Assembly (NCBI GenBank): GCA_903876445.1
Contig: CAIQZX010000016.1
Location: 1 to 36,818 of the forward strand
DNA: 36,818 bases
Direction: 5' to 3'
Source of the DNA: an uncultured Pseudomonadota bacterium
GTDB taxonomy: Bacteria; Pseudomonadota; Gammaproteobacteria; Methylococcales; Methylomonadaceae
Within the stretch, counting starts at the first letter, position 1. Each line of letters opens with the position of its first letter. Below the pieces are notes generated by a model. The model did no database searches. It saw only the letters and a list, made by a program, of their open reading frames with translations, and was not told the origin of the DNA. Below are positions 740 through 17,090 of the stretch, piece after piece. The position numbers and the translations under genes are program-made.

Positions 740-2155
740 ATGAATATAAAGATGAGAATTTTATTTCGTAAATTGCCCATTCAATTAGTCTGTATTTTTT
801 TAGTTACGGCGTTGTCAATGGGAAGCTATGAAATTTTGAAAGAACTCTATTTCAAAGGACAATTAACTTTATGGGAATCACACATTATTACAATTTTCGT
901 AACAGCTACATCTTCTATGATTGCAGCTTTTTTTATGAGTCATTTAGCAAGAAAATTGGTAAACACCGCACAAGAATCTCAATTTAAAGTCCAAAGTATT
1001 ATGGAAAATTTATTTGATGCCATAATTATCATTGATAAATTTGGCATCATTGAAATGGTCAATCCAGCGGCAGAAAAGATATTTGGCTATGATTCAAAAA
1101 AACTCATTGGTCACAATGTTAAAATTTTAATGCCAGAACCACATTCTAGTAACCACAACGGTTATCTCGATAATTACCTAACGACAAAAATTCCTAAAAT
1201 TATTGGTCATGTTCGGCAAAGAGTTCAGGGGATTCATTCTGATGGAACAGTCATCCCTATAGATTTGGTTGTAAATGAAATGCTTCATCATAATCAAGTT
1301 GCATTTATAGCGACCATCAGGGATGTGACTAAAGAGAATCGTATCAATCTTGAAATGAGACAACTGAGAGAAACTGAGAAAAAAATGCTGAAGCATTTAA
1401 AAGATGAGCTTCAGATGGCAAGTCACATTCAAGCCAATATGCTTCCGACAAAATTTTTACTTTATCCTGAATGCAAAGAAATTGAGGTCTTTGCCTCAAT
1501 GACACCTGCAAATGAAATAGGGGGGGATTTTTATGATGTTTTTCTTATGAATGCGGAAAAAGTCTTTATCGCCGTTGGTGATGTTACAGGTAAAGGCGTA
1601 TGCGCTGCTCTACACATGACTGAATGTATGGCACATCTACACATGATTGCGGCACGCGAATCAAAACCGCATAAAATTTTGCAAAAGTTGAATAATCGTC
1701 TTTGTGAAAATAATGGCTCTGGTATGTACATAACTTTGTGCTGCGGAATTTTTAATATGGTAACGGGCGAATTTGTTTATTCGAGTGCTGGACATAGCCC
1801 ACCACTGACGAATAAAGATACGAAACGTTTTGAATTTATGCCGATGCCAAGTTCTATTGTTCTTGGATTTGTAAAAGACGCAAAATATAAATCCGTGGCT
1901 TTACAATTAAATCCGGGAGACAGTGTTTTTCTTTATACAGACGGCGTGACGGATGCCACAAATAAACAACAAGATTTATTTTGCGACGAAAGATTGTTGG
2001 AAACCTTATCTACCTTAAACGAAGCTAGCCCGAAGGTCATTATTGAGCATGTGAAGAATGAAATTGAAACGTTTGCTCATGAAGTTGATCAAGCGGATGA
2101 CATAACCATGCTGTGTTTTCGCTACCTTCGACCGCTCAATCCAAGCATGTCATAA
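740..2155 (+). CDS. Membrane PAS-SpoIIE (PP2C) phosphatase, RsbU-type, with FixL-like PAS
   Basis: 471 aa. Two hydrophobic segments (about residues 14-33 and 48-68) anchor it in the membrane. A PAS domain follows (about 80-197), then a coiled-coil linker (200-235) and a SpoIIE-type phosphatase domain (240-462) with metal-binding motifs GGDFYDVF (261-268), GDVTGKGV (280-287) and the late QADDITM (451-457). Such proteins dephosphorylate STAS anti-anti-sigma proteins, and the gene is followed by RsbW-like and STAS genes. The PAS matches FixL closely: MPEPHSSNHNGY, then IIGHVRQRVQGIHSDGT. His139 aligns with the FixL heme ligand His200 and Arg159 with Arg220, with identical spacing. An oxygen-sensing phosphatase is therefore likely but unproven. 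An ATG at 752 is an alternative start. Confidence 0.9.
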   Translation: MNIKMRILFRKLPIQLVCIFLVTALSMGSYEILKELYFKGQLTLWESHIITIFVTATSSMIAAFFMSHLARKLVNTAQESQFKVQSIMENLFDAIIIIDKFGIIEMVNPAAEKIFGYDSKKLIGHNVKILMPEPHSSNHNGYLDNYLTTKIPKIIGHVRQRVQGIHSDGTVIPIDLVVNEMLHHNQVAFIATIRDVTKENRINLEMRQLRETEKKMLKHLKDELQMASHIQANMLPTKFLLYPECKEIEVFASMTPANEIGGDFYDVFLMNAEKVFIAVGDVTGKGVCAALHMTECMAHLHMIAARESKPHKILQKLNNRLCENNGSGMYITLCCGIFNMVTGEFVYSSAGHSPPLTNKDTKRFEFMPMPSSIVLGFVKDAKYKSVALQLNPGDSVFLYTDGVTDATNKQQDLFCDERLLETLSTLNEASPKVIIEHVKNEIETFAHEVDQADDITMLCFRYLRPLNPSMS

Positions 2156-2203
2156 ACTTGTTATACAATGGTGATATAACTTTTATTTTTGGAGATTAAA
2201 GAA

Positions 2204-2629
2204 ATGCAATCCATTGGGAAATTTGAACTACAGATATTTAATGACTTTTCCGAGTTTAAGGTTATGAACGCATGGTTACAAAATGTATTTAAAACCCTAG
2301 CATTGCCCGAATTACTTGCCAAAGATTTAGATGTTTGTGTAAATGAAGCCGTTACCAATATCATTCTTTATGCCTATGAAGATCAAAAATCTCATCAAAT
2401 TCAGATGCAAATTGAATTTAATGAAAATGAAGAAATCTGTTTAACCATTCAAGATGACGGCTCACCTTTCGATCCGTTCAGCGCAGTTTTAACTGATAAG
2501 TACGAAAAGATTGACGGCTTAAACATCGGTGGATTAGGAATTCCATTGATGCGTAGCTTAACAAGTCAACGTCATTATCGTTGGGTTAATGGAAAAAACA
2601 ACACGACTCTTTGCTTTTGTTTGTCTTAA
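2204..2629 (+). CDS. RsbW-like anti-sigma serine kinase (HATPase_c_2)
   Basis: 141 aa from the ATG at 2204, chosen over a TTG at 2189 because GGAG at 2191-2194 sits nine bases upstream of the ATG. It is a single GHKL ATPase domain: N-box with Glu48 and Asn52 (NEAVTNIILYAY), G1 box QDDGSPFDP (83-91) and G2 box GGLGIPLMR (109-117). These are the marks of RsbW/SpoIIAB-type kinases that bind a sigma factor or other partner and phosphorylate a STAS protein. The STAS gene follows 64 bp downstream and the opposing phosphatase precedes it. No sigma factor is encoded nearby, so its output partner is unknown. Confidence 0.88.
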   Translation: MQSIGKFELQIFNDFSEFKVMNAWLQNVFKTLALPELLAKDLDVCVNEAVTNIILYAYEDQKSHQIQMQIEFNENEEICLTIQDDGSPFDPFSAVLTDKYEKIDGLNIGGLGIPLMRSLTSQRHYRWVNGKNNTTLCFCLS

Positions 2630-2693
2630 AGATAGCGGCATTTTATTTCTCTTAACATAACACGTTGTAATTATTTAACTTTGGAGTATGAAA

Positions 2694-3059
2694 ATGGAAA
2701 TAAGTTCTGAACAATTGGATGGTGACATCTATAAAATAAATTTAACGGGTCGAATGGATATTCCGGGTAATGCCGAAGTAGACATTACATTTTCTGGAAT
2801 GACTGCATCCCCGCGTAAATTTTTTATTTTGGATCTTTCGGGTGTAGATTTTATTGCGTCTATTGGTATTCGTACCATTCTTATGAGTGCGAAAGCAATT
2901 CAGAATCGTGGTGGAAAAATCGTACTATTAAATCCAGATAGTCATGTTGAAAAAATCTTATCGGTAGCTGGTGTTGGTACAATACTCGACATCGTTCACA
3001 GTTTAGAAACAGCACTCATTATGTTTTCATCACAGCCCACTTTGGAAGAAAATGATTGA
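2694..3059 (+). CDS. STAS-domain anti-sigma factor antagonist (RsbV-like)
   Basis: 121 aa from the ATG at 2694, preferred over the ATG at 2688 because GGAG then lies at a normal 7-base distance rather than 1. The STAS fold is clear: LTGRMDIPGN, FILDLSGVDFIASIGIR and GGKIVLLNP. Ser56 in IASIG is the expected site phosphorylated by the upstream RsbW-like kinase and dephosphorylated by the SpoIIE protein. The three genes make a complete partner-switching cycle. The C-terminal dozen residues are acidic and probably disordered. Confidence 0.9.
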   Translation: MEISSEQLDGDIYKINLTGRMDIPGNAEVDITFSGMTASPRKFFILDLSGVDFIASIGIRTILMSAKAIQNRGGKIVLLNPDSHVEKILSVAGVGTILDIVHSLETALIMFSSQPTLEEND

Positions 3060-3469: not shown

Positions 3470-3865
3470 TCAACCGTAACTAGGACAATTATTGAATAAA
3501 GCGTTTATGTCCAACACTAAACCAACTTCTCCACTACCTAACAACGTGCAACCCGTCACGCCACGAATGTGTGATAAATAGCCTTGTAATGGGCGCGAAA
3601 GGACATTGTACTGACCAATCAATTCATTTACTTTGATAGCAATACATTGCTGTTTTTTTCCAACAACAATAACAAATAAATGTTTTTCATCATTCATTAA
3701 ATCTTGAACTACGGGAACTGTATCTTGATGGCTACCTTTTAAAAACTGTATAGGAATAACATGCTCTTCCTCTTCTAGCTTCAGCATATAACCGCCTTCG
3801 TTAGCCGATACTCGCATCAAACCTTCATTATCCGTGCGAACAATGCGCTGTATTCTGTCAATAGG
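3470..3865 (-). CDS. CheA3-like protein, C-terminal P5 (CheW-like) part, downstream of a frameshift
   Basis: This is the missing end of the long CheA encoded at 3817-7158. Conceptually restoring one base near 3866 gives the continuous reading IIPIDRIQRIVRTDNEG, and then a CheW-like fold (HVIPIQFL, HLFVIVVGKK, NELIGQYNVL, VTGCTLLGSGEVGLVLDI). The latter is the standard CheA C-terminus that docks on CheW and receptors. As the sequence stands, this part can be translated separately only from a weak TTG/ATG near 3817-3820. P5 codons remain free of stops, so the shift is either recent, a sequencing or assembly error, or a recoding site. Confidence 0.8.
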   Translation of the reverse strand, partial: PIDRIQRIVRTDNEGLMRVSANEGGYMLKLEEEEHVIPIQFLKGSHQDTVPVVQDLMNDEKHLFVIVVGKKQQCIAIKVNELIGQYNVLSRPLQGYLSHIRGVTGCTLLGSGEVGLVLDINALFNNCPSYG

Positions 3866-6800
3866 ATAATATATTGTATCGAATTTACTCGCACGACCAT
3901 TCCATCAAGGAGTAACATCGTCAGTGACATTGTTAATGTAAAGCGAATTCCGCCACCTAATGGTAAATTCGTAACAAACAAACTGCCGCCCAACGGGGTT
4001 AAATACTCTTTAATATCTGCAAACTCTAATCCACCATAATTTGAATCATCGTTTGACGTTACACCATATTCTTTATGAAAAATCATATCTATCGACGGCT
4101 TTTCCTGCCAGCCTAATTGCTTGGCACGTTGAGCAATTCTTTCCAAATCAATACCAATACCATCGTCTTCAACCGTTAATTGAATCCGATCTTCGTTTTC
4201 AACCAAAGCAACACGCAAAGAACCTCGTCCATCTTTTCCAATTGCGACACGATGTTCTGGTGATTGAATACTTTGCAAAATGCAGAAACCGACTAATGCG
4301 CGTAATGGCGACTTTAAGTTTTCTAACAATGTCATATCAAGTGATATGTCATCACCTTCAACTGTATTGAAATCGACATATCGATTATTTTTTCTAGCTA
4401 ACGCTTCAACAAATGGCACTAAGGGTTTTAATAACTGACTCACGGAGCGCATTCGTCCCGAAATCGCTTCTTCTTGCAACTGTGTAAGCAAAACATTCGT
4501 TTGCATACCAATTTGCACCATTTTTTCGATTTTTTCTTGTAACAATAGCAGTGAAAGACGAACATCATCTTTTGCAAGTGACCATTGACCATGAAAAGCA
4601 TTCATTTTAGATTCAATGGTTTTAATTAAATCATCTTTAACGAGTTCATCAAGTAAGTGTTGAACCATCGTTTGATGCGTCACTAATTCGCCGATAGACT
4701 CAAGCATATTACCTGATAGCTGACCTTGTTGTGCGGCTACCGGAATTTCGCCATCGTTTAAAAATAGACCCTCTTGCATTTTTTCAGGCGTGTCATCGAA
4801 ATCACTCAATTTTCTATCTGTTAGCGTTTGTTTTACAAAAAGAAAATTTCCTGTTGAATCCAATATATCTAAAGCCTCTCCAATTTGAGTAGGGTTCAAC
4901 GAGGTGGCGAGTAAAAAATCAAACAAGGTACGATTATCATCAAAAACGGTTACGTTACTAATCGCTTGCACAACGCCCGATTCAATCCAGTTTAGGAAGT
5001 TACAGGCTAAATTTTCATCTTGTTCTAAATCTGCTCGAATAATATAAAAATATTTGCCTTTTTGAATCGCCTCGGAAGCAATTTTCACACTTTCTGTTGT
5101 GAGAACCTTATGAAATGATTTAGGCAAACCTAAGCGTGCTTCTATACTTTGAGAAGAAATTGTTCCTGTCGATGTAAAGGCAACAGATGACGCTTCTTGG
5201 AATAATTTTTCAATTAACGCCATATCTGGCATACATCCAGACGTGATGTTTTCGAAAACCAATTCCATGTCCGTAATGAACGATTTTGCAATGTGTAACA
5301 TTACAGCATCGGTTTTCATAACATCGTTGATAACTCTTGCAAACAAATCACTTAATACCGTGCATAAATGTGCGGCAGTTCTGAATTCGTAATGCTGACA
5401 AGCATAATAAATTTCGCGTAATAGCTCGGTAATGTGCAAGCAGTTTTCATTTATGTCTACTTCATTTTTAATCAGTTCTAGCAATCGACGTATTAAAATT
5501 AAACTTTCAAATACACGATCGACACACCATTTTTCTAAAAATGTTTTCGCACAAAAATTGGTTGGCTTATTATTTTCTGGAAGGATGTTTTCAATAGCGA
5601 CTAAGGTTTCGTACAATCGAAACTCAAAATGATGTAATTTATTTTCAACAGTTTCGCCCTGTTCTAATGCAACAAAAAAATCTTCAGCGATTTCTGCTAA
5701 ATGGAAAAAACCTTGTGCTTCCGAGATATTTTTAATTTTATGTGCCGCGTCAATTAACTCATCAACGTGAACATTAACATTTGCACTGATTTCTCTTCGT
5801 CCAAAAATAGCAAAAACGTGAAGGGGTTCTTGGATTTCAGCGAAAAATTGAATAATGGGGATATTACTTTCAATATCGTGATTGGTGTGCGGTACTGAGT
5901 TTGGATTTTCAAATAAAATTGTTAATTGTTGGACTAAATTCGACGCATCTTCGATTGTAGGTAAAACTATTGCTAAGTATTGCCCTAAAAAAGTTTGCCA
6001 TTTTGCTAAACCAATTTGCGTTGCCGCAAATAATAATCGCATGGTAGCTTCAGCAAAATCTAATTGCAAACGTGCAGGCGAATTAGCGTATTCGTTCACA
6101 ATACTTCGCATTTCAAACAAAATATCATTCGCCATATCGACGAAAAGGTCTAAATACACCGGATCATCTACTAATGATTCTATTTTATCAAAAATCATTG
6201 CCAATACAGGTTCATCAACGGGCGTTACATCACCGCCAAAATCCCGATTGAAAAGACTCAATAAACCATCGTATAACGCTCTGAACTGTTCTTCACTTTG
6301 ATTTGATTGGGCTAAAAATTCCTCGATGATAAATTTCCATTCCGGTAATTTAATTTGTTCAACCGCTAATTGAAGGGATAAACAGGCATTTAAAAAATCA
6401 GCTTGTGCTTCAGTGACATCAATTTTGAAATTTTCAATCGCCATTTCCATATTTTCGAAAATGTCACTCGCCATATCCGAGAAAATTTCTCGATAAACCG
6501 GATCATTAGCTAACGTTTCTGTATTATCAAAAATAATCGATTCAATAGCTCTATCGATAGCTTCATCGGCATTTTCATTATCAGCAATGTCAATATCACC
6601 ATTTTCAATCATTTCAGTTATAAATGCTTCATTTACAATGGTTTCATCAGCAGTAGATTTATCGAAAGTAGGCGGAACTTCATCGATAACTTGCATTTTT
6701 TGGCGCGATTTTTTAGGTTTCTTTTCAACAGGCGAATTACGACAACGTGCCAATTTATCTTTCATTCGTTCAACAAGATCGTTTGACATTTCTGGATCGG

Positions 6801-7158
6801 TATCTTGCTGGGTTTCACATATTTGTGACAACATAGGATGTAAAACATCAACCATTTCAAGCAATAAATCAATGAGTTCGGCATCTAACGGAACACCTTC
6901 ATCACGCACTAATCCGACTAAATCTTCAGCAACGTGCGCCCGTGATTCAATAACGGAAAGTCCCATGACGCGAGAATTGCCTTTAAATGTGTGCATGGCT
7001 CGAAATAAACTACTTATCGTATCGGCATCTGTTGGCGCATCTTTCAAAATAAGTAATGCTTCTTCCATTGCACCTAAAGTTTGTTCGCTCTCATCGGCGT
7101 AAAGCCCCCAAACTTCATCTAATTCACTTGACATGGCTATTTCTCTATAATTTGTCAT
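3817..7158 (-). CDS. cheA: CheA3-like long chemotaxis protein: P1 (Hpt), long helical linker, decayed ATPase; frameshifted at its 3' end
   Basis: 1113 aa before the premature stop. Residues 12-138 are an Hpt/P1 domain with phospho-accepting His56 in RAMHTFKGNSRVMG. Residues 205-285 and 318-398 are two copies of an Hpt-like helical repeat (FDNTETLANDPVY / FDKIESLVDDPVY) without the active His. A further Hpt-like stretch has AAHKIKNISEAQG (471-483). Residues 885-1080 resemble CheA P3/P4, but the N-box is lost (GFCILQSIQSPEHR where CheA has NAxDHG) and the G2 box is changed (NYGGLEFADI for GRGVGMDV), so ATP binding is doubtful. The best reading is a phospho-relay and possibly regulatory CheA, phosphorylated by the P1-less kinase at 13373-14578. 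Start is ATG 7158 or, with a better AGAG site, ATG 7134. Confidence 0.88.
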   Translation of the reverse strand: MTNYREIAMSSELDEVWGLYADESEQTLGAMEEALLILKDAPTDADTISSLFRAMHTFKGNSRVMGLSVIESRAHVAEDLVGLVRDEGVPLDAELIDLLLEMVDVLHPMLSQICETQQDTDPEMSNDLVERMKDKLARCRNSPVEKKPKKSRQKMQVIDEVPPTFDKSTADETIVNEAFITEMIENGDIDIADNENADEAIDRAIESIIFDNTETLANDPVYREIFSDMASDIFENMEMAIENFKIDVTEAQADFLNACLSLQLAVEQIKLPEWKFIIEEFLAQSNQSEEQFRALYDGLLSLFNRDFGGDVTPVDEPVLAMIFDKIESLVDDPVYLDLFVDMANDILFEMRSIVNEYANSPARLQLDFAEATMRLLFAATQIGLAKWQTFLGQYLAIVLPTIEDASNLVQQLTILFENPNSVPHTNHDIESNIPIIQFFAEIQEPLHVFAIFGRREISANVNVHVDELIDAAHKIKNISEAQGFFHLAEIAEDFFVALEQGETVENKLHHFEFRLYETLVAIENILPENNKPTNFCAKTFLEKWCVDRVFESLILIRRLLELIKNEVDINENCLHITELLREIYYACQHYEFRTAAHLCTVLSDLFARVINDVMKTDAVMLHIAKSFITDMELVFENITSGCMPDMALIEKLFQEASSVAFTSTGTISSQSIEARLGLPKSFHKVLTTESVKIASEAIQKGKYFYIIRADLEQDENLACNFLNWIESGVVQAISNVTVFDDNRTLFDFLLATSLNPTQIGEALDILDSTGNFLFVKQTLTDRKLSDFDDTPEKMQEGLFLNDGEIPVAAQQGQLSGNMLESIGELVTHQTMVQHLLDELVKDDLIKTIESKMNAFHGQWSLAKDDVRLSLLLLQEKIEKMVQIGMQTNVLLTQLQEEAISGRMRSVSQLLKPLVPFVEALARKNNRYVDFNTVEGDDISLDMTLLENLKSPLRALVGFCILQSIQSPEHRVAIGKDGRGSLRVALVENEDRIQLTVEDDGIGIDLERIAQRAKQLGWQEKPSIDMIFHKEYGVTSNDDSNYGGLEFADIKEYLTPLGGSLFVTNLPLGGGIRFTLTMSLTMLLLDGMVVRVNSIQYIILLTEYSALFARIMKV

Positions 7159-7238
7159 TTATCGATAATTTTTAACTCCACCTATAAAACTCAAACGTTC
7201 AGATGGAGCATTCTATTCAGTCTTAAAACTTAATAGCT

Positions 7239-7643
7239 CTAACCCATCAATATCTTTTTGATAGTACGTTCCATTTCTGCACCACGAACGGCAGCTAAGT
7301 CTAACGAAACAGCACCAGATGGCTTCGTAATAATCGCATCAGCTCCGTACAAACGTGCTTTCGCAGCATAAGGTGAACCTTCTAATGCAACCGATGATAA
7401 AATAACAATTTTAGCTTTTGTTTTTGGGCGGGCTTGACGCAAAAACTCCAAACCATCCATTTCTGGCATTTCAATATCCAGCATAATCAACGACAAGTCA
7501 GGATTTTTCGCAAGTTCTTCAAGTGCCTTTTTACCATTGTCGGCATTTGCCACAACTGAAAAGTCACTCCATTTACTGATAATTCCACGGATTACATTAC
7601 GCATCATCACAGAATCATCAACTATCATCACTTTATAAGCCAT
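7239..7643 (-). CDS. cheY: CheY-like single-domain response regulator (CheB-type receiver)
   Basis: 134 aa from the ATG at 7643, chosen because GGGAGAGG lies just upstream. The frame extends 8 codons further without support. A full receiver: acidic pair Asp9/Asp10 (VDDS), phospho-acceptor Asp56 in IMLDIEMPEMDG, SS at 83-84, and Lys107 in ITKPSGAVSLD. The KPSG segment and overall sequence look more like the receiver of CheB than a classical CheY. It lies between the soluble MCP and the long CheA, the position of cheY6 in the Rhodobacter operon. It probably carries the signal to the motility motor or acts as phosphate sink; the target is not visible here. Confidence 0.9.
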   Translation of the reverse strand: MAYKVMIVDDSVMMRNVIRGIISKWSDFSVVANADNGKKALEELAKNPDLSLIMLDIEMPEMDGLEFLRQARPKTKAKIVILSSVALEGSPYAAKARLYGADAIITKPSGAVSLDLAAVRGAEMERTIKKILMG

Positions 7644-7701
7644 TTCTACCTCTCCCAGAATTTTCAAATCTAATTATAGTGTTGTCAAAATTTTTAAATG
7701 C

Positions 7702-7731
7702 ACACCGAGACAAGAGAATTTGCCTCGATGT
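7702..7731 (-). other. Intercistronic hairpin between the soluble MCP and cheY
   Basis: On the transcribed strand, ACATCGAGGCAA (from 7731) pairs with TTGTCTCGGTGT across a 6-base loop, giving a 12-bp stem with only G-U wobbles. It is followed by an A/T-rich stretch without a clean U-run. In the middle of an operon this could be a leaky terminator or an RNA-processing or stability element that sets different levels of MCP and CheY/CheA. Confidence 0.5.
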
Positions 7732-7742
7732 ACTTTTGGAAT

Positions 7743-10199
7743 TTAAAATTTCCCAAATCCACGTTCATCACTGTTTAACGGCATAATTTGTTTAGGCGAT
7801 TTTTTTCCTGTTCCCGTTGAAGATGTAGGTGATATTACAGGCGATGAATGTGAAGTAACAGGCGTTTTTAATCCAGTATGTTGTGCAAGCATAGCTTGTA
7901 ACTGATACAGCATTTCAGGTGTAATGCCATTTAAATCTAATAATCCTGATGGACGTTGACGTTCACGCAATTTGAATCGACTCAATTCTTGTTGTGTGCG
8001 TGTTGCGATTGCCGCTAATTCTCTTGATGCAGAAGCAAGTTCTTCGGACTGTTGGCTACCTTCGCGTGATGCCGAAGCCACTTGTCCCATTGCAATGTTG
8101 ATTTGTGACACGCCGCGTGACTGTTCTACGCTAGCGGTCGAGATTTCAGAAACAAGATTTTTCACTTCAATGACATTTGCGACAATTTTATCGAGTGCCT
8201 CACGGGTTTGACGCGCGATATTAACGCCATCACCAACTCGTTTTGTTGAATCTTCAATTAAGTCTGCCGTTTCACGCGCGGCTTTTGCACTACGTCCTGC
8301 TAAATTACGCACTTCTTGCGCGACAACCGCAAAACCACGACCATGTTGCCCTGCTCTTGCCGCTTCTACGGCGGCGTTTAACGCGAGCAAATTCGTTTGG
8401 AATGCAATTTCGTCAATCACCTTAATGATTTTAGCAATGCTTTGTGCAGAATCGTTAATCGAGTTCATTGCTTCGGACATAGCTTGCATTTTGACTTGTC
8501 CTTCATTTGCCGCTTCAGAAGTGACAACAACTAACTGATTAGCAGAATTTGCATTTTCAGTATTTGCTTTAACTTGACTATCAGTTTGTTCAAGAGCCGA
8601 AGTGACTTCTTCTACCGCAGAAGATTGCTCTTCAGCAGTTGCCGCCATATTTTGTGATGAACCATTTAATTGTGACGCAGCTTGACTAACTTGCTCAACA
8701 GTTTGAATTACTTGCGAGAAAGTATCATTCAATCCATTTAATGCGCGTTCAAATGCGTCGATAATTTTACGATAATCACCTTGATGTCTATTAGCATCAA
8801 CGTTGATGGCTAAATTTCCTTCAACAATCGCATTAGAAATAGCCGTTGAATCTTGAATAATCGAATTCACCGCATCGATACAAGTATTCAAATTATTTTT
8901 CAAAATGTTGAAATCACCATTGTAAGAATCAGTAATTTTGGCAGGAATGTTTCCTTTCGCAATGTTATCGACATAATCAGCCGCAACGTTTAGCGGATTG
9001 ATAACGGCATCTAACGTGTCATTAACGCCGACGACGATTTTACGGAAATCACCTTGATGTTTTGACGCATCGGCACGAGTCGCTAAACGTCCTTCAACAG
9101 CCGCAATCGCTAATAAATTTGCATCGGAAACCAACGCATTTACCGCGTCGATACAAGTATTTAAGTTATTTTTCAAAATATTGAAATCACCGTTATACGA
9201 ATCGGTAATTTTGGCAGGAATGTTTCCTTTCGCAATGTTGTCCACATAGTTTGCTGCAACATTTAGCGGATTGATAACAGCATCTAACGTGTCATTAACG
9301 CCGACGACGATTTTACGGAAATCACCTTGATGTTTTGACGCATCGGCACGAGTTGCTAAACGTCCTTCAACAGCCGCAATCGCTAATAAATTCGCATCGG
9401 AAACCAACGCATTGACCGCATCGATACAGGTGTTTAGATTATTTTTCAACACATTGAAATCACCGTTGTACGAATCGGTAATTTTGGCGGGAATGTTTCC
9501 TTTTGAGATGTTATCGACGTAATCCGCCGCGACATTTAACGGATTGATAACCGCATCTAACGTCGCATTAACACCAACCACAATTTTACGGAAATCTCCT
9601 TCATGTTTGCTGGCATCGGCACGAGTCGATAAACGTCCTTCTACAGCCGCGACTGATAACATATTCGCGTCAGAAACCAAGGCTTGAATGTTATTTTTAA
9701 GTAATACAAGCCATTCGTGAATTTGATCTTTCTCAGAAACCTTACCCATTTCAGCCGTCAAATCACCGCCAGAAATTTTTGCAACGAATGCAATCAAATC
9801 AGTCAACCAACTGTAGATACCGTTAATAGTATCTTTCATTTTTTCGTGATCGCCGTAACACGTTATTTCAACTTTGTTTCGTAAATCACCGCCACGAATG
9901 GCTCTTAAAACTTGATTGCCTTCAGCCATTGGAAGTAAGGCTTTATCCAACATTGTGTTCACGGCAGACAATAATTCTGAACTTTCAGCTGCTGCGCGTT
10001 CGGATAATAAACCTTGTTCAAATGCCTTTGTGAGGCGGACAACTTCTGCTAATACTATTTGTTCTGACATCTCGATTTCCTCGTTATTTAAAATAGTGCT
10101 GTTTTCTACCGAGAGTGGTAGGTCATTTTTTTCTGCATCAACCCAAGCCAGCGGATCGTTACTAGGGGGTTTGGGGGGTCTTCGTCGTCTTTCTGCCAT
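7743..10199 (-). CDS. Soluble poly-HAMP chemoreceptor (TlpT-like)
   Basis: 818 aa with no membrane segment, so cytoplasmic. The N-terminus is strongly basic ([12 protein letters not shown]), followed by DPLAWVD. HAMP-like units fill residues 90-490, including three near-perfect 91-residue repeats (173-263, 264-354, 355-445; for example [14 protein letters not shown] and [10 protein letters not shown]) and a diverged fourth. The MCP signalling domain follows, with the tip [20 protein letters not shown]. The C-terminal tail is Ser/Thr/Pro-rich and lacks a CheR-tether pentapeptide. It is directly downstream of the ParA gene, whose stop codon lies in this gene's GGAG ribosome site. In Rhodobacter the equivalent pair (PpfA, TlpT) positions cytoplasmic arrays, and the basic tail here is a plausible ParA-stimulating peptide. 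Confidence 0.92.
8865..9683 (-). repeat. Three 273-bp in-frame tandem repeats in the soluble MCP gene
   Basis: Matching bases recur at exactly 273-bp steps (for example the CGATACA motif near 8876, 9149 and 9422), which equals 91 codons. At protein level the two copies nearer the C-terminus differ at one residue (VAANYVDN against VAADYVDN). This shows recent duplication or ongoing gene conversion. Copy number is likely variable between strains, and the region is prone to assembly collapse. Confidence 0.9.
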
Positions 10200-10206
10200 T
10201 TTGGAA

Positions 10207-10917
10207 TTACTCCTGCGTTTTCAAGTGTTTTTGTCTTAACCAATAATTTGTTAATGATTGGTAATCATTCGCTCCCGAACTATCAGGTGCGTAATCAAAA
10301 ATACTCCAGCCATAACTTGGTGATTCTGCAAGACGTACGGATTTGCGAATAACACCATTTAATAAATTATCACTAAAACGCTGTGTTAAATTTTCACGCA
10401 CTTCACGATGGACAACCAGACGCGCATCAAACCGACAAAGCAATAATCGCATCCGACTGCGAGGAATAGATTGACGTTCCATCGTTTGAAATAATCGACT
10501 AACTCCCTGCATACTCAAAAATTCTGGCTCTAACGGCGTTAAAATCCAATCTGCTTGTGTCATTAAATGCGCCACTGTTTGGTTCCAAACGGGCGGCGCA
10601 TCAATAATAAAAAAACCGTCATGTTTAATAGGGAACGGCACAATAGTTGGCATTGTTTCAGGTTGAGAATCACCAACAATCAGCGATAAATTATCGCCAA
10701 TAATATGGGGACTTCCTTTCCGATTCGCTAACCAATCCGACACATTCCATGCGAAATCTTCGGCTTTAAGTCCTAACGCAGCAGTTAAATGTGTTTGCGG
10801 ATCTAAGTCCACCAACGTAACCGGAAAAGAACTCGAACGCGCCAAACCAACACCTAAATTTAATGCCGTTGTGGTTTTTCCAACACCACCTTTTTGATTA
10901 AAAATAAGAATGTTCAT
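10207..10917 (-). CDS. ParA/MinD-family ATPase of the chemotaxis cluster (PpfA-like)
   Basis: 236 aa. It begins with the deviant Walker A motif KGGVGKTTT, including the signature Lys9. VTLVDLDPQ is the A' motif and FFIIDAPP the Walker B region. ParA proteins dimerise on ATP, bind nucleoid DNA and are released by a partner's N-terminal peptide. Here there is no parB; the gene sits between cheW and the soluble MCP, so the MCP is the likely partner and the cargo is the chemotaxis array rather than DNA. Its stop lies within the ribosome site of the MCP gene, which suggests coupled translation. Confidence 0.92.
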
Positions 10918-10924
10918 GACATAC

Positions 10925-11467
10925 TTATTCTATTTTCAAATTTGAAAGTGTTTTTTGTAAATCAATAACGTGTTCCGAAACTAAGCATTGAACGTCTAAT
11001 AAAATTGCTACTTTATTACCTTGCTTGCCTAAACCACGAATTACGCCTTCTTGATTTGCACCGATTTGTGGTGGTTTATCAATTTGGCTTTCAGGAATTT
11101 CCATTACTTCACTGACGTTATCTACAATCAAACCAATCAACACGCTGTTAATATCTAAAACGATAATTACAGTTCGTTCGTTATACACTTCTTCTTTCAT
11201 GTTGAAACGTTTACGAACATCCATCACGGGAATAACCTTGCCGCGCAAATTGATAACGCCTTTAATGAAATAAGGCACATCAGGCACTTCCATAACACGT
11301 TGCATACCCACAATTTCAGTCACAAAGTTGATACCGATACCGTATTCTTCTGTGCCTAATCCAAATGTTAAGTACATATCGTTAATATCATTTTCATCGT
11401 TGAAAACTAAATTGAGTTCTTCATCTTCACCATGTTTTGGGCTTGTTTGATTTATATTTTTTGACAT
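10925..11467 (-). CDS. cheW: CheW coupling protein
   Basis: 180 aa, one CheW domain (about 30-170) after an acidic N-terminal tail: YLTFGLGTEEYGIGINFVTEIVG, then VPDVPYFIKGVINLRGKVIPVMD and the closing AILLDVQCLVSE. CheW links receptor tips to the P5 domain of CheA in chemoreceptor arrays. AGGAAATGAA upstream is a good ribosome site. It is seven bases from the ParA gene and in the same operon, so it presumably serves the soluble MCP and the two CheA proteins encoded here. Confidence 0.95.
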   Translation of the reverse strand: MSKNINQTSPKHGEDEELNLVFNDENDINDMYLTFGLGTEEYGIGINFVTEIVGMQRVMEVPDVPYFIKGVINLRGKVIPVMDVRKRFNMKEEVYNERTVIIVLDINSVLIGLIVDNVSEVMEIPESQIDKPPQIGANQEGVIRGLGKQGNKVAILLDVQCLVSEHVIDLQKTLSNLKIE

Positions 11468-11490
11468 TTCATTTCCTAAAATTGTAATTG

Positions 11491-12540
11491 TTATTTAAAT
11501 GCGTTCAGTAATGCACTAGGAATTTTTTCTAAAGGTAACATTTTTTCTACAGCCCCCATTTCATGGGCAACTTGCGGCATTCCAAACACCACAGATGTTG
11601 CTTCATCCTGTGCATAAGTACGTCCACCTGCTTGGCGAATTGCGAGCAAACCCGCCGCGCCATCTTTCCCCATACCAGTCAAAATAGCCGCTGACGTATT
11701 ATGTTTCGCTTCACGCGCCACCGAATAAAATAGTACATCTACAGATGGGCGGCTGTAATTAACCAAATCGCCTTCTTGCAATACAATTTTGTATTGATTT
11801 CCAGAGCGAATAATTCGTGTGTGATATTCCCCTCCCGGTGCAATTAACGCAACCCCTCGTTTAATTACTTCACCATTTTTTGCTTCTTTAACATCTATCT
11901 GGCACAAGCTATCTAACCGTTTTGCAAAAGTTTCAGTAAATCCTGCCGGCATATGCTGAACGATAATAATTGCGGGAGAATCTGCTGGAAACATCGGCAT
12001 AATGCGAGCAAGTGCTTCTACACCACCTGTTGAAGAGCCAATAGCAATAATACGTTCATGACTTATGTCAACATTCCGGCAAGGTTTTTCCGGTAAAAAC
12101 AAATCGTGACGAATTATTTTTTTTACGTTAACAGTCGCCGCTATTTTAATTCGTTCATTTATGTCACTAATTGACGAAGACAAGTTATCTATTAAATTGA
12201 ATGTTGGCTTTGCAATGACATCTACAGCCCCCGCTTCCAGCGCATCGAAGGTAATACGTTTTCCTTTTTGAGTAAGAGAACTTACGATAATTGTGGGTGT
12301 TGGCATCACTGCCATAAAATGTTTTAGAAATGTTAAACCATCCATTCGTGGCATTTCTAAATCCAATGTAATGACATCGGGGCGTAATTCCACCATTAAA
12401 TCTCTTGCCTCATAAGGATTTTCAGCTTGACCAACAATTTCTATTTCTGGGTCTTTCCTAATATGCCCCGATAAAATTCGACGCACTAATGCCGAATCAT
12501 CCACAATTAAAACGCGAATAGGTTTTTTTATATTACTCAT
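11491..12540 (-). CDS. cheB: CheB chemoreceptor glutamate methylesterase
   Basis: 349 aa. N-terminal receiver domain with phospho-acceptor Asp60 in VITLDLEMPRMDG and the CheB signature IVSSLTQKG, then a linker and the methylesterase domain. The catalytic triad is visible as Ser170 (GSSTGG), His196 (VQHMPAGF) and Asp293 (GMGKDGAAG). It removes methyl groups from receptor glutamates, opposing the CheR encoded just upstream. The start overlaps the cheR stop by four bases (ATGA), which implies translational coupling. All residues needed for activity are present. Confidence 0.97.
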   Translation of the reverse strand: MSNIKKPIRVLIVDDSALVRRILSGHIRKDPEIEIVGQAENPYEARDLMVELRPDVITLDLEMPRMDGLTFLKHFMAVMPTPTIIVSSLTQKGKRITFDALEAGAVDVIAKPTFNLIDNLSSSISDINERIKIAATVNVKKIIRHDLFLPEKPCRNVDISHERIIAIGSSTGGVEALARIMPMFPADSPAIIIVQHMPAGFTETFAKRLDSLCQIDVKEAKNGEVIKRGVALIAPGGEYHTRIIRSGNQYKIVLQEGDLVNYSRPSVDVLFYSVAREAKHNTSAAILTGMGKDGAAGLLAIRQAGGRTYAQDEATSVVFGMPQVAHEMGAVEKMLPLEKIPSALLNAFK

Positions 12541-13367
12541 AATTTTCTATATACGCTGCCTACGATATTTACCCAGCGAGTATTTAAATGTCTTAACGAA
12601 ACAGTCACGCTTGTGATAAGCCAACCACCTTGCTTGGTAACATCATAAATATTTTCAAGTACCTGTTTTTGATGCACCTCATCAAAGTAATACAAAACAT
12701 TGCGACAAAACACGACATCAAATTTATTATTAAATGGATAAGGCTGCGTTTTTAAATTCAGTCGTCTAAATGTACACGCCCGACATAAATGTTTATTAAC
12801 ACGATATTGACCGTTATTTAATGCGTCAAAATAATGCCTAATTATCAAATCAGGGGTATTTTCTAATGCGTTTTCTCGATAAATACCTTTTTCCGCATGA
12901 GCTATTACATGCTTATCAATATCCGTGCCTAAAATACTAAGATTGTTTTTTACCCACTCTATCCCCTTAGCTTCGGCGGCAATTATTGCAATGGTATAGG
13001 CTTCATCACCTGTTGAGGCGGCAGCACTCCAAATGCGAGCTTCATTTCCTAATGCTGGTAAAATAACGTCACGAAAATAATTAAGAACTAACGGTTCACG
13101 AAAGAAATAAGTGTGATTTGTTGCCGCCGCCGAAATAACAGTTGATTGCACATCGAACGAATGCCCCTGTTCTAATACATCCGCCAATTCTTCAAAACTT
13201 GAAAAATTTTCAGCATTACAAACTCGCCGCAAACGTTGTTCTAAAAGTGCTTGTTTTCTTTCTGGATAGTGCATCCCACAACTTTTATTCAGCCATTGAC
13301 GAATGCGTTCAAATGCCAGTTTATCTGCATTTGAATTTGAGTTATTAGACATTGTTTGTGTTGACAC
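12537..13367 (-). CDS. cheR: CheR chemoreceptor methyltransferase
   Basis: 276 aa, normal length for CheR. N-terminal helical domain with the TNHTYFFRE motif (83-91), then the SAM-binding region WSAAASTGDEAYTIA (113-127) and FCRNVLYYFD (220-229). It methylates receptor glutamates using S-adenosylmethionine. The usual second residue pattern SAGCSTGEE is altered to SAAASTGDE, but the acidic residue is kept. The listed start is a GTG; an ATG at 13352, five codons in, is equally possible because neither has a clear ribosome site. Only five bases separate it from the kinase gene upstream. Confidence 0.94.
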   Translation of the reverse strand: MSTQTMSNNSNSNADKLAFERIRQWLNKSCGMHYPERKQALLEQRLRRVCNAENFSSFEELADVLEQGHSFDVQSTVISAAATNHTYFFREPLVLNYFRDVILPALGNEARIWSAAASTGDEAYTIAIIAAEAKGIEWVKNNLSILGTDIDKHVIAHAEKGIYRENALENTPDLIIRHYFDALNNGQYRVNKHLCRACTFRRLNLKTQPYPFNNKFDVVFCRNVLYYFDEVHQKQVLENIYDVTKQGGWLITSVTVSLRHLNTRWVNIVGSVYRKL

Positions 13368-13372
13368 GTTTT

Positions 13373-14578
13373 TTAAACCAATTGTTCACAATCTAGGACA
13401 GTCGCAACTTCCCCAGTACCAAGTAACGCACAACCTAGACTTGCTCGAATTTTTCCTAACGAACTCGGAAGTGGTTTCATAACGACTTGTTGTTGATCGA
13501 AAATTTCATCAACAGGTAATCCAACCTGACCTTGGCTAGTATTGAAAACAACAATAATTTGACTACTTAACGCAATTTGCATGTCGTCACTTTCGCCATA
13601 AAACTTATTTAACCTACAAACAGGAATAAAGCTATCCCGCACTTTTACGACTTCTATATTATTGTCAGCAGAAATATGGGTAATTTGAGAATCGAGCGGT
13701 TGAAAAATTTCGCTCACGACATCAATAGGCGTGGCATATAGTCGATTGCCAACACGGACAACTAAACTATCAAGAAAAGCCAATGTAAGTGGAATAGAAA
13801 GTGTTACTCTTGCACCGACACCCCAAACGCTATGAATAGTGATTCTGCCACGCAATTCTTTAATCGTATTATTTAAGACATCCATTCCAACGCCGCGACC
13901 CGACAAATTGGTAACAGCTTCAGCAGTAGAAAAACCGGGTTGAAAAATGACCTTCCACAGCATATCGTCACTGGGTTCTTCATTGATGCCAAATAATCCG
14001 CGTTCTCGTGCTTTTGCCAGAATACGTTCACGATGTAATCCACGCCCATCGTCTGCAATTGTGATGTTAATGTCGCCCCCAACCTGCGTTGCAGATAAGG
14101 TAATTGTTCCAGCATCGGGTTTTCCACACGCAATGCGTTCTGCTGTCGATTCAAGACCGTGGTCAGCAGAATTTCGAACAATATGCACCAACGGTTCATA
14201 CAGCCTATCAACAACAACTTTGTCAATTTCGACTTCTTCACCTTCAAACACAAGATTGATTTTTTTATCGGTTTGACGTTCCAACTCTCGAATCATTCGC
14301 CGCATTCGGCGAAAAACTTCGCCAATTTCAACTTGGCGTAATTCTGTTGATATATCTTGAATCTCTCGTACAATCATTTTTAAACGATGAGCCGATTTTT
14401 CAAATTCATCTAATTCGATGCCTTTTAAATCTGGACTGTTGATAGTTTCTGAAACACTCAATCCCAGCTCACCAACTATATCCATCAAACGAGCAACTTT
14501 CTCAACAGGAATTCGCAAAAAAGCGGCTTGTTGAGCAGAAGCATTCGAATTCGTGTCATTTTCAATTTCTTTATTCAT
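13373..14578 (-). CDS. cheA: CheA4-like histidine kinase lacking the P1 (Hpt) and P2 domains
   Basis: 401 aa from ATG 14578 (a GTG at 14587 is the alternative). It begins almost directly with the P3 dimerisation helices (about 20-100). The P4 ATPase is intact: N-box VRNSADHGLE (Asn136), G1 box ADDGRGL (175-181), the F-box region ending in FQPGFST, and G2 box SGRGVGMDVL. A P5 CheW-like domain closes the protein. No His-containing P1 is present, and normal CheA is about 650 aa, so it cannot autophosphorylate a domain of its own. As in Rhodobacter CheA4, it should phosphorylate the P1 of the long CheA encoded at the other end of the operon. First gene of the chemotaxis operon. Confidence 0.93.
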   Translation of the reverse strand: MNKEIENDTNSNASAQQAAFLRIPVEKVARLMDIVGELGLSVSETINSPDLKGIELDEFEKSAHRLKMIVREIQDISTELRQVEIGEVFRRMRRMIRELERQTDKKINLVFEGEEVEIDKVVVDRLYEPLVHIVRNSADHGLESTAERIACGKPDAGTITLSATQVGGDINITIADDGRGLHRERILAKARERGLFGINEEPSDDMLWKVIFQPGFSTAEAVTNLSGRGVGMDVLNNTIKELRGRITIHSVWGVGARVTLSIPLTLAFLDSLVVRVGNRLYATPIDVVSEIFQPLDSQITHISADNNIEVVKVRDSFIPVCRLNKFYGESDDMQIALSSQIIVVFNTSQGQVGLPVDEIFDQQQVVMKPLPSSLGKIRASLGCALLGTGEVATVLDCEQLV

Positions 14579-14885
14579 GTAAAGCACGTCATATAGTTAT
14601 GGTGGAAAATTCAGAATACGTTATGCTAATATCGTTCCAAAATCAAAAAACTATAATTTCTTGATCATGCACGTTTTTTAGGACAGAGAAATTTGGCCTG
14701 TTGAGATTCAAATTCAAAGTATAGTGCAACCAACACATCATAAGCCCTTGCAATCATCGCCTTTATAACTTTGACATCAAGCAGTCATAAAATGGTTGTT
14801 AGAATGGCGACTTATAACGCAATCAGCACTTACGCTTTTTGTTTTTATTAGCACTGGGCTATGTCACTAACTAAAATAGTTGAAC
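14579..14885. other. Divergent intergenic region between the chemotaxis operon and an MCP gene
   Basis: Promoters in both directions are expected here. Towards the minus strand there is the sigma-54-like site at 14625-14639. Towards the plus strand there is TTGACA at 14771-14776 without a well-spaced -10 box. There is also a weak FliA-like pair, TAAA at 14788 and GCGA at 14807, with correct spacing but a poor -10 match. No gene or repeat is seen. Confidence 0.4.
14625..14639 (-). promoter_or_regulatory. Candidate sigma-54 promoter of the chemotaxis operon
   Basis: The minus strand reads TGGAACGATATTAGC. Against the sigma-54 pattern TGGCACGNNNNTTGC it has two mismatches and keeps the essential GG and GC at the right spacing. 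Transcription would begin near 14613, about 35 bases before the ATG at 14578. One match in a short region can arise by chance, so this is a candidate only. Confidence 0.35.
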
Positions 14886-17090
14886 ATGAAAGTTAATAGA
14901 GTCAGTTTCAAATCAAAAATTGTATTAGGTTTTTTTACCATCATCGGTTTAATGGCAATTCTAATTGTCTCTACACTTGTTAATTATGCCCAAACGGAAG
15001 AAGATTTAAAAAAAATTAAAGATGTTTTCTTACCCAACGCTTTATTGTCTGGGCAAATGTCTCGGGATATTGTACAAGTCCAACAATTTCTAAATAATGT
15101 TTCAGCAACCCGAAATAATGCCGCTTATGTTGACGCAGATCGCTCGCGAGAAGATTTCAAACATGGACTTGAACAATATCGACAATATGCCGCCGCTGAC
15201 GCTGATAAATTAAAAGCAATTTCTACCTTAGAACAAGGATTTGATGCGTTTTACATAGATGGTAAACGTATGACAGAAGCCTATCTAAACGAAGGTTCAG
15301 AAGCAGGCGATAAAATCATGGGTGATTTTGATCATGCAGCCAGCAAATTATCAGCGCAAATGATTCGACTTAGAAACAGCGAATCAAATGGCGCAAAAGC
15401 TAGCATTCAAAACATTTTCGATGATACACAAAAAATGCGAAATACCTTATGGATAATGGCTTCAGTAATTATTAGTTTGGCTGTTACGATTTCATTGCTA
15501 CTCAGTTATTATTTGAGCGAACAATTAGGGATTGATCCGTATTATGCGAAAGGTATTGCCAAAGAAATCGCAGACGGTCATTTGTCTCGAAAAATCAACC
15601 TCCGTAAAGGCGATAAAGACAGTTTACTGTATTCGATTAAAAATATGCAGGAAAAATTGTTAGTTCGTCGAACTGAAGAAAGACAGGCTGCTGCGGAAAT
15701 TTTGCGTATAAAAATTGGATTGGATAACGCCAGTAAAGGAATTATGATGGCAGATAACAATCGAAATTTAGTTTATTTAAATGACGCAGCAAAAAAGATA
15801 TTGAAGCAATACGCCTCCGATATTAAAGGTGAAGAACCGCATTTTGACGTGGAAAATTTGATTGGATTAAATATAGACGTGTTTCATCAAAATTCTCAAC
15901 ATCAAATGGGATTATTAAATTCGCTTACGGAAAGTGTTTTTTCGTATGCAAAACTGGGTAGTCGAACCATGACGATTGTTGCTAGTCCTATATTAGACGA
16001 ACATGGCGAACGTTTAGGCACGGTTGCCGAATGGTATGATTGCACAGCTGAAACAATTGTTGAAAAAGAAGTCGCCGAGATTGTTAAAGCCGCGAGTTTG
16101 GGTAATTTTTCTCAACGCTTTAATTTAGAAGATAAAGAAGACTTTTTACTCGATTTAACGCAAGGTTTAAATCAATTATTGAATACTTGTGAAGCTGGTT
16201 TAAACGATATTGCTGAAGTCTTATTTGCAATTTCACAAGGGGATTTAACCAAAAAAATCGAAACTGAATATGATGGGACGTTTGGAAAACTTAAAAACGA
16301 TACCAACATGACAGTTGAAAAACTTAAAGTAATGATTAACCAAATCAGAAGCTCGGCGGATAGTATTTATGGTGGTTCAAAAGAAATCGCATCGGGTAAT
16401 AATGACTTATCATATCGAACCGAAATGCAAGCCGCGCGTTTGCAAGAAACCGCTGCGAGTATGGAGCTACTCACGCAAGCCGTAAAAAATAATGTCAGCA
16501 ATGCTGAACAAGCCAATGTGCTTGTGACGAATTCGGTGAGTATCGCAATAGAAGGCGGAAAAGTCGTTGAAAATGTGATTGAAATGATGGACGGCATCAA
16601 TCAATCTTCACGACATATTGAAGATATTATTGCAGTGATTGATGATATTGCTTTTCAAACTAACATTTTGGCGTTGAACGCAGCAGTAGAAGCGGCTCGT
16701 GCCGGCGAACAAGGCAATGGTTTTGCGGTTGTTGCAGTAGAAGTTCGCGATTTGGCACAACGAGCAGCGTTGGCAGCGGCTGAAATCAAAAAATTGATTG
16801 CCGATTCTGTTGTACAAGTAAATAACGGTGTTTGCTTAGTTGAACAAGCAGGACTAACCATGAATAAGATTATTGATTCGATTCAAGGTGTGACGGAAAT
16901 AATGAGCAAAATCAGTGACGCATCTGCCGAACAAAATGCGGATATTGTTCAAGTTAATCAAGCCATTAACCAAATGGATAATGTCACGCAACAAAACGCA
17001 GCATTGGTTGAGCAATCAGCGGCAGCCGCTGAATCACTTAAAGACCAATCGCAGAATCTCTCTATTGTGATTCGTAATTTCAAAATTTAA
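14886..17090 (+). CDS. Transmembrane methyl-accepting chemotaxis protein with PAS-like cytoplasmic module
   Basis: 734 aa from ATG 14886 (a TTG at 14880 is less likely). Transmembrane segments at 11-32 and 188-209 frame a helical-bundle periplasmic sensor. After a HAMP-like stretch comes a PAS-like unit ([20 protein letters not shown], with [12 protein letters not shown]), a second HAMP-like unit ([20 protein letters not shown]) and the signalling domain with tip [20 protein letters not shown]. It ends at IRNFKI without a CheR tether. The PAS-HAMP-signalling part is paralogous to the receptor at 20407. It is transcribed divergently from the chemotaxis operon. The ligand is unknown. Confidence 0.93.

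Follow-up and report, generated by a model that had tools for sequence, protein, structure and literature searches.

The window analyzed in this work is a 36,818-nucleotide stretch of DNA from an uncultured member of the Methylomonadaceae (order Methylococcales; GenBank assembly GCA_903876445.1, contig CAIQZX010000016.1). At positions 3470-14587 its minus strand carries a chemotaxis operon with the order CheA4-CheR3-CheB2-CheW4-ParA-soluble methyl-accepting chemotaxis protein (MCP)-CheY6-CheA3, as read from open reading frames (ORFs) and Pfam domains. The host genome (2.81 Mb, 223 contigs) contains a gene of the pmoA/amoA family (PF02461, E 1.3e-129), and the host is therefore a methanotrophic gammaproteobacterium. 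The split-kinase cytoplasmic array, as encoded by cheOp3 of Rhodobacter sphaeroides, counts as a textbook curiosity known from a single alphaproteobacterium and has been reported as rare (PMC2829493, PMC3591291). We consider it highly probable that the window holds a cheOp3-class cytoplasmic chemosensory operon of a methanotrophic Methylococcales genus, horizontally related to the Rhodobacterales operon and working by the mechanism proposed below. The operon belongs to an established class, and its host is new for that class; a DPLxW motif near the N terminus of the receptor and a pseudokinase within CheA3 are the leads that it offers.

The eight genes and their reading frames

All eight genes lie on the minus strand, and each has the domains that the initial annotation had given it. 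The features of the operon, with the evidence for each in brackets, are as follows:

13373..14587, minus strand: cheA4-type gene, a P3-P4-P5 kinase without P1, with N, G1, F, and G2 boxes intact (Pfam H-kinase_dim, HATPase_c, and CheW; catalytic boxes; tree)
12537..13367, minus strand: cheR3-type methyltransferase (Pfam; tree)
11491..12540, minus strand: cheB2-type methylesterase with receiver domain (Pfam; tree)
10925..11467, minus strand: cheW4-type coupling protein (Pfam; tree)
10207..10917, minus strand: parA/ppfA-type ATPase, Walker A KGGVGKTT (Pfam; tree)
7743..10199, minus strand: tlpT-type soluble chemoreceptor with repeated HAMP_2 domains (Pfam; no transmembrane-like stretch)
10140..10157, minus strand: DPLAWV motif, residues 15-20 of the MCP, behind a basic, proline-rich N terminus; proposed ParA-binding tag (motif comparison)
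8865..9680, minus strand: 273-bp (91-residue) tandem repeat, in three copies, within the HAMP portion of the receptor (repeat analysis)
7239..7667, minus strand: cheY6-type response regulator with KPSG extended loop (3kyj_B, E 3.6e-41; CheY6 signature)
3817..7158, minus strand: cheA3-type main frame with P1, helical regions, an alpha/beta region, P3, dead P4, and the start of P5 (Pfam, PDB search, AlphaFold model, structure search)
6736..7128, minus strand: P1 (Hpt) of cheA3, phospho-acceptor His in HTFKGNSR (3kyi_A, E 1.6e-37; structure match TMt 0.94)
3925..4713, minus strand: P3 and degenerate P4 of cheA3, residues 816-1078 (Pfam, profile comparison, structure, kinase boxes)
3470..3820, minus strand: remainder of cheA3 P5 (CheW-like) in another frame after a frameshift (Pfam, ORFs)

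The cheA4 gene has two start options, a GTG at 14587 and an in-frame ATG at 14578, the latter being the end given in the initial annotation. Counts from a scan for sigma-70 promoters and terminators are near background (44 vs 38.2 and 12 vs 10.7).

By hydropathy, the receptor has no transmembrane segments, as expected of the cheOp3 class: its highest 19-residue value is 1.53, compared with 2.56 and 2.11 in the two other MCPs of the window. A membrane MCP at 14880-17090 (plus strand) is divergent from cheA4, and a PAS/TarH MCP lies at 20407-23178. The 273-bp repeats number 3.0 copies in the window receptor and 4.0 in a relative (G004, L033 6627-7720), and total receptor length varies from 607 to 1266 aa inside the genus. 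The thickness of the array may follow the number of HAMP repeats.

The last gene had been annotated as a long P1-bearing CheA. P1 is indeed present (Pfam Hpt), but this contig does not carry the gene as a single open frame: P5 starts at the end of 3817-7158 and continues as 3470-3820 in another frame. In five relatives (L032, L033, L034, L035, and L037) the P5 match falls inside the span of the P1-bearing ORF, and in L032 and L037, the two relatives scanned with Pfam, Hpt and CheW occur in a single translation. The frameshift may be an assembly error or a real mutation, and the sequence was left unmended. That P5 is interrupted in the very contig analyzed weighs against the reading given above, and would fit an operon that is decaying in this strain, with a CheA3 unable to join the array since its P5 is broken. 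We regard such decay as unlikely, although its probability is not negligible: the assembly is split into 223 contigs, of which the window is one; the remaining frames, the CheA4 catalytic boxes, and the ParA Walker A are all intact; and CheA3 is in one frame in close relatives.

Kinship with cheOp3 and distribution

A phmmer search of the PDB returned R. sphaeroides CheA3-P1 (3kyi) as the top match for P1, with the next match in P1 at 5.5e-19, and R. sphaeroides CheY6 (3kyj) as the top match for the CheY, the next non-CheY6 match being a CheB receiver at 3.8e-18. The CheY6 signature VDDxxM is found in 70 of 71 cheOp3-type loci and the KPSG loop in all 71; Met13, which by our matching of the numbering by eye lies inside VDDxxM, has been described in R. 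sphaeroides as a main point of contact with CheA3-P1 (PMC2817712). Besides its gene order, the window has a P1-less CheA4 with active boxes, a kinase-dead CheA3 with P1 and P5, a CheY6-type regulator, and a ParA of the PpfA clade. The order of cheOp3 in R. sphaeroides itself, which we take to be the same, agrees with the gene lists in papers. Gene order, best PDB matches, and trees thus concur with the initial proposal that the operon equals cheOp3.

Among the 71 loci, 50 have all six of cheA4, cheR, cheB, cheW, cheY6, and cheA3 on one strand, and 48 of these 50 share the same order, the exceptions being L037 and L051, in which genes have been rearranged. The remaining 21 loci sit at contig ends or have one parsed gene missing. 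Of the eight-gene order, first described as fully conserved, ParA is no fixed part (20 of 52 scorable operons; see below). The order is common to a whole class and not to Rhodobacter and the host species alone. In the rearranged operon of Rhodosalinus sediminis (L051 4454-15200), cheB has moved to the end, and both ParA and DPLxW are absent; its receptor has a strongly hydrophobic, transmembrane-like stretch (maxKD 2.48) and may have returned to the membrane.

In trees, the cheOp3-type CheA4, ParA, CheR, CheB, CheW, and CheY6 each fall on one side and the other che paralogues on the other. The 51 cheOp3-type CheA4 rows split from seven paralogues at 100/100, with the Methylococcales outside the Rhodobacterales, and 23 cheOp3-type ParA rows split from 25 other ParA at 100/98. 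The corresponding values of the Shimodaira-Hasegawa-like approximate likelihood ratio test (SH-aLRT) are 99 for CheR, 91 for CheB, 88 for CheW, and 95 for CheY6; these four are quick trees with few outgroups and long branches, and two of the six gene trees are only moderately supported.

ParA genes are reported to be common in che operons (77 of 206 species; PMC2829493), and the host genome carries a second ParA-bearing che cluster, C130, so a generic ParA-containing cluster that came to resemble cheOp3 by convergence had to be weighed. C130, however, has a different order and a full CheA, and it is placed among the che systems outside the cheOp3-type branch; the order in the window is not generic to ParA-containing che clusters, and neither of the two refuting findings named with the initial annotation was obtained. 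Convergence, which we hold to be exceedingly improbable, is rejected on this ground and on those of the trees, the gene order, the split of CheA, and the identity of CheY6.

The genomes of 84,980 species were scanned with a P1-domain alignment, which sees only proteins with its two peptide patterns and says nothing on absence elsewhere. Of 85 relatives, 80 were kept: 70 CheA3-type proteins (L042-L111) and 10 ordinary CheAs (L112-L121). The CheA3-type proteins come mostly from Rhodobacterales; six are from the Methylococcales genus, three from Hyphomicrobiales metagenome-assembled genomes (MAGs), two from unplaced Proteobacteria MAGs, three from MAGs placed only as Alphaproteobacteria, and one from a divergent gammaproteobacterial MAG. 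Nearer the host, 101 genomes were considered, 18 of the genus (its own included) and 83 from elsewhere in the family and order. Matches to the CheY6 type (at least 177 bits) occur in 7 of the 18 and in none of the 83, where the best score is 71 bits. PpfA-type ParA (at least 337 bits) occurs in 6 of the 18, with nothing else above 112 bits in a 61-genome search, and the two sets combined cover 8 of the 18 genus genomes. A second CheY6-type gene, 63% identical to that of the window, was observed in another genome (G008 C76 145636-146052, L038), with the rest of the operon not nearby.

When five genes from 50 loci are concatenated, the 44 rows from Rhodobacterales and other Alphaproteobacteria group together (100/100), as do three Methylococcales (100/100), and the Methylococcales and Hyphomicrobiales L106 are on one side of a 100/98 branch. 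A CheA3+CheY6 tree separates the Rhodobacterales from all others at 100/100 and does not resolve the inner order of the others. The ParA of a Hyphomicrobiales genome (G104, L179) groups with the Methylococcales at 100/100. Genes of PF02461 (E 1e-107 or better) are present in two of the three operon-bearing Hyphomicrobiales genomes (L098 and L106); PF02461 was not found in the genome of L052 or in three others. Most likely, the operon moved horizontally. Three genomes are a small number, but exchange between methanotrophs that live in the same habitat is a reasonable reading. The presence of the whole operon in methanotrophs of two classes supplies natural variants for testing which of its parts are essential.

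Because Fla1 is said to derive from a gammaproteobacterium (PMC7277832), we also considered a gammaproteobacterial donor of cheOp3 to Rhodobacter along with Fla1. This reading is unsupported: the operons of Methylococcales form a clade apart from those of Rhodobacterales, only one Methylococcales genus has the operon and only sporadically, and Rhodobacterales FliM sits on a long branch in a tree of that protein (23 rows, L122 missing). The root of the CheA4 tree is uncertain, with 94/29 at the key node.

Loss of kinase boxes in CheA3 and the proposed signaling route

The catalytic boxes are retained in CheA4 (N in 50/51, G1 in 50/51, F in 48/51, and G2 in 51/51), and the P1-like HxKG is found in none of the 51. 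In CheA3 the N, F, and G2 boxes are each found in 0/60 and G1 in 10/60; these 60 proteins were chosen by their P1 motif, which is present in 60/60 by construction. The part of CheA3 between P1 and P5 has been described as 794 residues of unknown structure with CheY6-P phosphatase activity (PMC3964821, PMC2817712). Pfam finds a HATPase remnant there in the Methylococcales CheA3 proteins scanned (33.0, 30.6, and 33.1 bits). L048 has such a remnant too, that of L111 falls short of the threshold, and L061, L063, L098, and L102 give no match. Once P5 is removed, a profile of 51 Rhodobacterales-type CheA3 proteins matches P3-P4 of CheA4 with a probability of 96.6 (E 5e-10), and a profile of the other lineages does so with a probability of 99.2 (E 8e-20); the remaining parts of CheA3 reach a probability of 0.9 or less.

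AlphaFold models are consistent with these matches. A P3-like hairpin and a P4-like fold appear both in the model of the window CheA3 (predicted local distance difference test, pLDDT, 79.8) and in that of Cereibacter CheA3 (80.8), a protein that is a fair stand-in for R. sphaeroides CheA3 because its P1 and that of the R. sphaeroides crystal have 85-86% identity. CheA P4 chains match the models with TMt up to 0.88 for the window protein and mostly 0.5-0.6 for Cereibacter; the predicted template modeling score (pTM) is 0.36 in both, which makes the arrangement of the domains meaningless. CheA3 is a full-length CheA whose kinase died, with the erosion having gone further in Rhodobacterales, and the P3-P4 remnant gives a linker of unknown structure a partly recognizable origin. 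Extra Hpt domains or a P2 domain in the middle of CheA3, hinted at by the AlphaFold secondary structure, are unsupported (probabilities of 0.1 to 11.9 in profile comparison with seven full CheAs). A CheA3-like protein of 1506 aa in gammaproteobacterial MAG co234_bin55 (L111 1892-6409) is alone in having three Hpt matches and is perhaps an early form.

By analogy with R. sphaeroides, a cytoplasmic array would be assembled from the soluble receptor with its many HAMP domains, from CheW4, and from P5 of both CheAs. CheA4, the active kinase that has no P1, would phosphorylate P1 of CheA3 in trans, as in R. sphaeroides biochemistry, and CheA3-P would pass the phosphate to its own CheY6 and to CheB; CheR and CheB would adapt the receptor. 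CheY6-P would then act on the flagellum, as motor control in R. sphaeroides suggests, and CheA3, its own kinase domain dead, would also speed the loss of phosphate from CheY6, again following R. sphaeroides biochemistry. ParA on the nucleoid would hold and partition the array by binding the N-terminal DPLxW tag of the receptor, and we infer a ParA-positioned cytoplasmic array.

The neighborhood of the operon allows for a non-flagellar output, such as a pathway of stress response or partner switching. A PAS-SpoIIE phosphatase, an RsbW-like ATPase, and a STAS protein lie in a row at 740-3059 (plus strand), convergent with cheA3, as a partner-switch module adjoining the che operon, and within the window no flagellar genes flank the operon. 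However, all 24 genomes searched for FliM have it, and the regulator belongs to the CheY6 type, which is reported to stop the motor in R. sphaeroides (PMC10924463), so that we find such an output improbable. Genes like this partner-switch set have been described for F7 stage-1 clusters (PMC7184735).

ParA, a candidate tag on its partners, and known systems

An interval between cheW and cheY6 is available in 55 loci, three of which have no MCP there (L049, L097, and L100), leaving 52 scorable operons. ParA is a removable part, since only 20 of the 52 have it. In the window, the gene directly behind parA is the MCP, and [DN]PLxW[VLIM] occurs at its residues 15-20. The strict form [DN]PLxW[VLI] is found near the MCP N terminus in 14 of 20 operons with ParA and in 0 of 32 without it (Fisher p 2e-8, uncorrected for descent), and a DPL-type core in 19/20 and 8/32, respectively. 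A PpfA orthologue was found in 0 of the 14 ParA-less genomes (of 32) that were searched whole, with a best score of 92 bits and no match at all in two; true orthologues score 255 bits or more. DPLxW is also present in all four of the ParA loci that had no part in its discovery (L147, L148, L151, and L179). Among 2537 distinct ORF N termini in the loci, the motif occurs in 49, all of them partner genes of a che-type ParA, several being one protein in overlapping loci.

The motif recurs in a second ParA-bearing che class. C130 (L039), in the same genome as the window, has the order CheA-CheW-MCP-CheW-ParA-STAS protein-CheR-CheB and a full CheA with P1. In 29 of 31 loci of this class, the gene behind parA opens with G(Y/F/H)DPL(A/S)W(M/L) or with a sequence close to it (13/13 in one locus set and 16/18 in another, the exceptions being L204, with DPLAA, and L218). 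DPLxW is found in 0 of 23 loci with another, chromosomal-type ParA, where the next gene has a ParB-like GLGRGL start or is not readable. By Pfam, 10 partner genes encode STAS domains in seven cases (L206 below the curated cut-off, L216 also with a globin domain) and globin and/or PAS domains in three; these domains led us to withdraw the idea that the partners are CheW-like ParP proteins. In five extended loci (L233, L234, and L236-L238), the tagged ORF has an MCP signaling tip and no transmembrane-like stretch. A 536-residue open frame with three CheW domains was also observed (G000 C154 13955-15397, L040).

We propose, from co-occurrence and position, that DPLxW is the ParA-binding tag of such arrays. 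Several observations weigh against this proposal. Eight operons without ParA, forming one clade (100/100), keep the DPL core without Trp, which is as expected of a relic. Six of the 20 operons with ParA are without the strict motif: three have DPLDR[IL], two DPFA (L058 and L070), and L087 none. Conversely, L108 carries the motif although its ParA has no canonical Walker A. Corrected for descent, there are six independent pairs, with 4.8 in the same direction and 0 in the opposite one (p about 0.06), and the ParA-motif link is suggestive only. In L087, whose receptor has no DPLxW, the ParA Walker A is the non-canonical KSGVGKTT.

The array and ParA could exist with DPLxW serving as a CheW/CheA contact or as a receptor feature that merely travels with ParA. 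In favor of this alternative are the weak support after correction for phylogeny and the usual description of ParA/MinD partners, which often act through positively charged N termini (PMC7993993, PMC10241942). Yet the same motif opens STAS proteins and globin/PAS receptors behind parA of the second class, unrelated carriers that have only the ParA neighbor in common; orthologous receptors in ParA-less operons are without it; and the N terminus of TlpT is reported to bind PpfA (PMC3964821). We therefore doubt a role that does not involve ParA. No chemotaxis title was seen among 13 papers containing the letters DPLAW, DPLDW, or DPLEW, a comparison of titles only that leaves earlier notice of the motif possible.

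Taken as one proposition, to which we give even chances, DPLxW would be a portable chromosome tether that makes any N-terminal bearer (cheOp3-type receptor, globin/PAS receptor, or STAS protein) cargo of the chemosensory ParA clades, as ParB uses GLGRGL, and ParA-less operons would let the tag decay, Trp first. The CheY6 phosphatase of CheA3 may, by the same proposition, have arisen in a protein whose CheA P3-P4 kinase was lost once CheA4 had taken over its task, and Methylococcales would keep an earlier stage of that decay. If the tether reading is true, sequence is enough to predict, by way of the tag, which bacteria partition internal arrays. Operons with and without ParA serve as a natural experiment, which points to six residues as the candidate contact between ParA and receptor.

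The window operon can be compared with three systems. In Vibrio ParC/ParP, as here, a ParA-family ATPase is described as positioning arrays via the N terminus of an array protein (PMC5706961). Unlike here, that system is polar and uses a CheW-like ParP adaptor; no such gene is in the window operon, where the gene after parA is an MCP and the only CheW (10925-11467) has no N-terminal motif. The class of C130 and its gammaproteobacterial relatives is like the window operon in that a chemosensory ParA is followed by a gene opening with DPLxW and the receptors in the loci read are soluble, but it has a full CheA with P1, another order, and a ParA of another clade, and its tag sits on a STAS-domain protein or globin/PAS receptor rather than on a cheOp3-type MCP. 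The gene content of C130 resembles the F7 stage-1 cluster (PMC7184735), a label that we infer. With cheOp3 of R. sphaeroides, the window operon shares gene set and order, the split CheA, the CheY6 type, the PpfA-type ParA, and a soluble receptor with a basic N terminus and DPLxW, a likeness that was assessed in two congeners, Cereibacter ovatus (L063) and Luteovulum azotoformans (L061). It differs in its host, a gammaproteobacterial methanotroph, and in not lying beside flagellar genes within the window, whereas the R. sphaeroides operon is reported to lie in the fla1 locus (PMC7277832). It differs further in a receptor built of tandem HAMP repeats and in a CheA3 whose P4 fold is better preserved.

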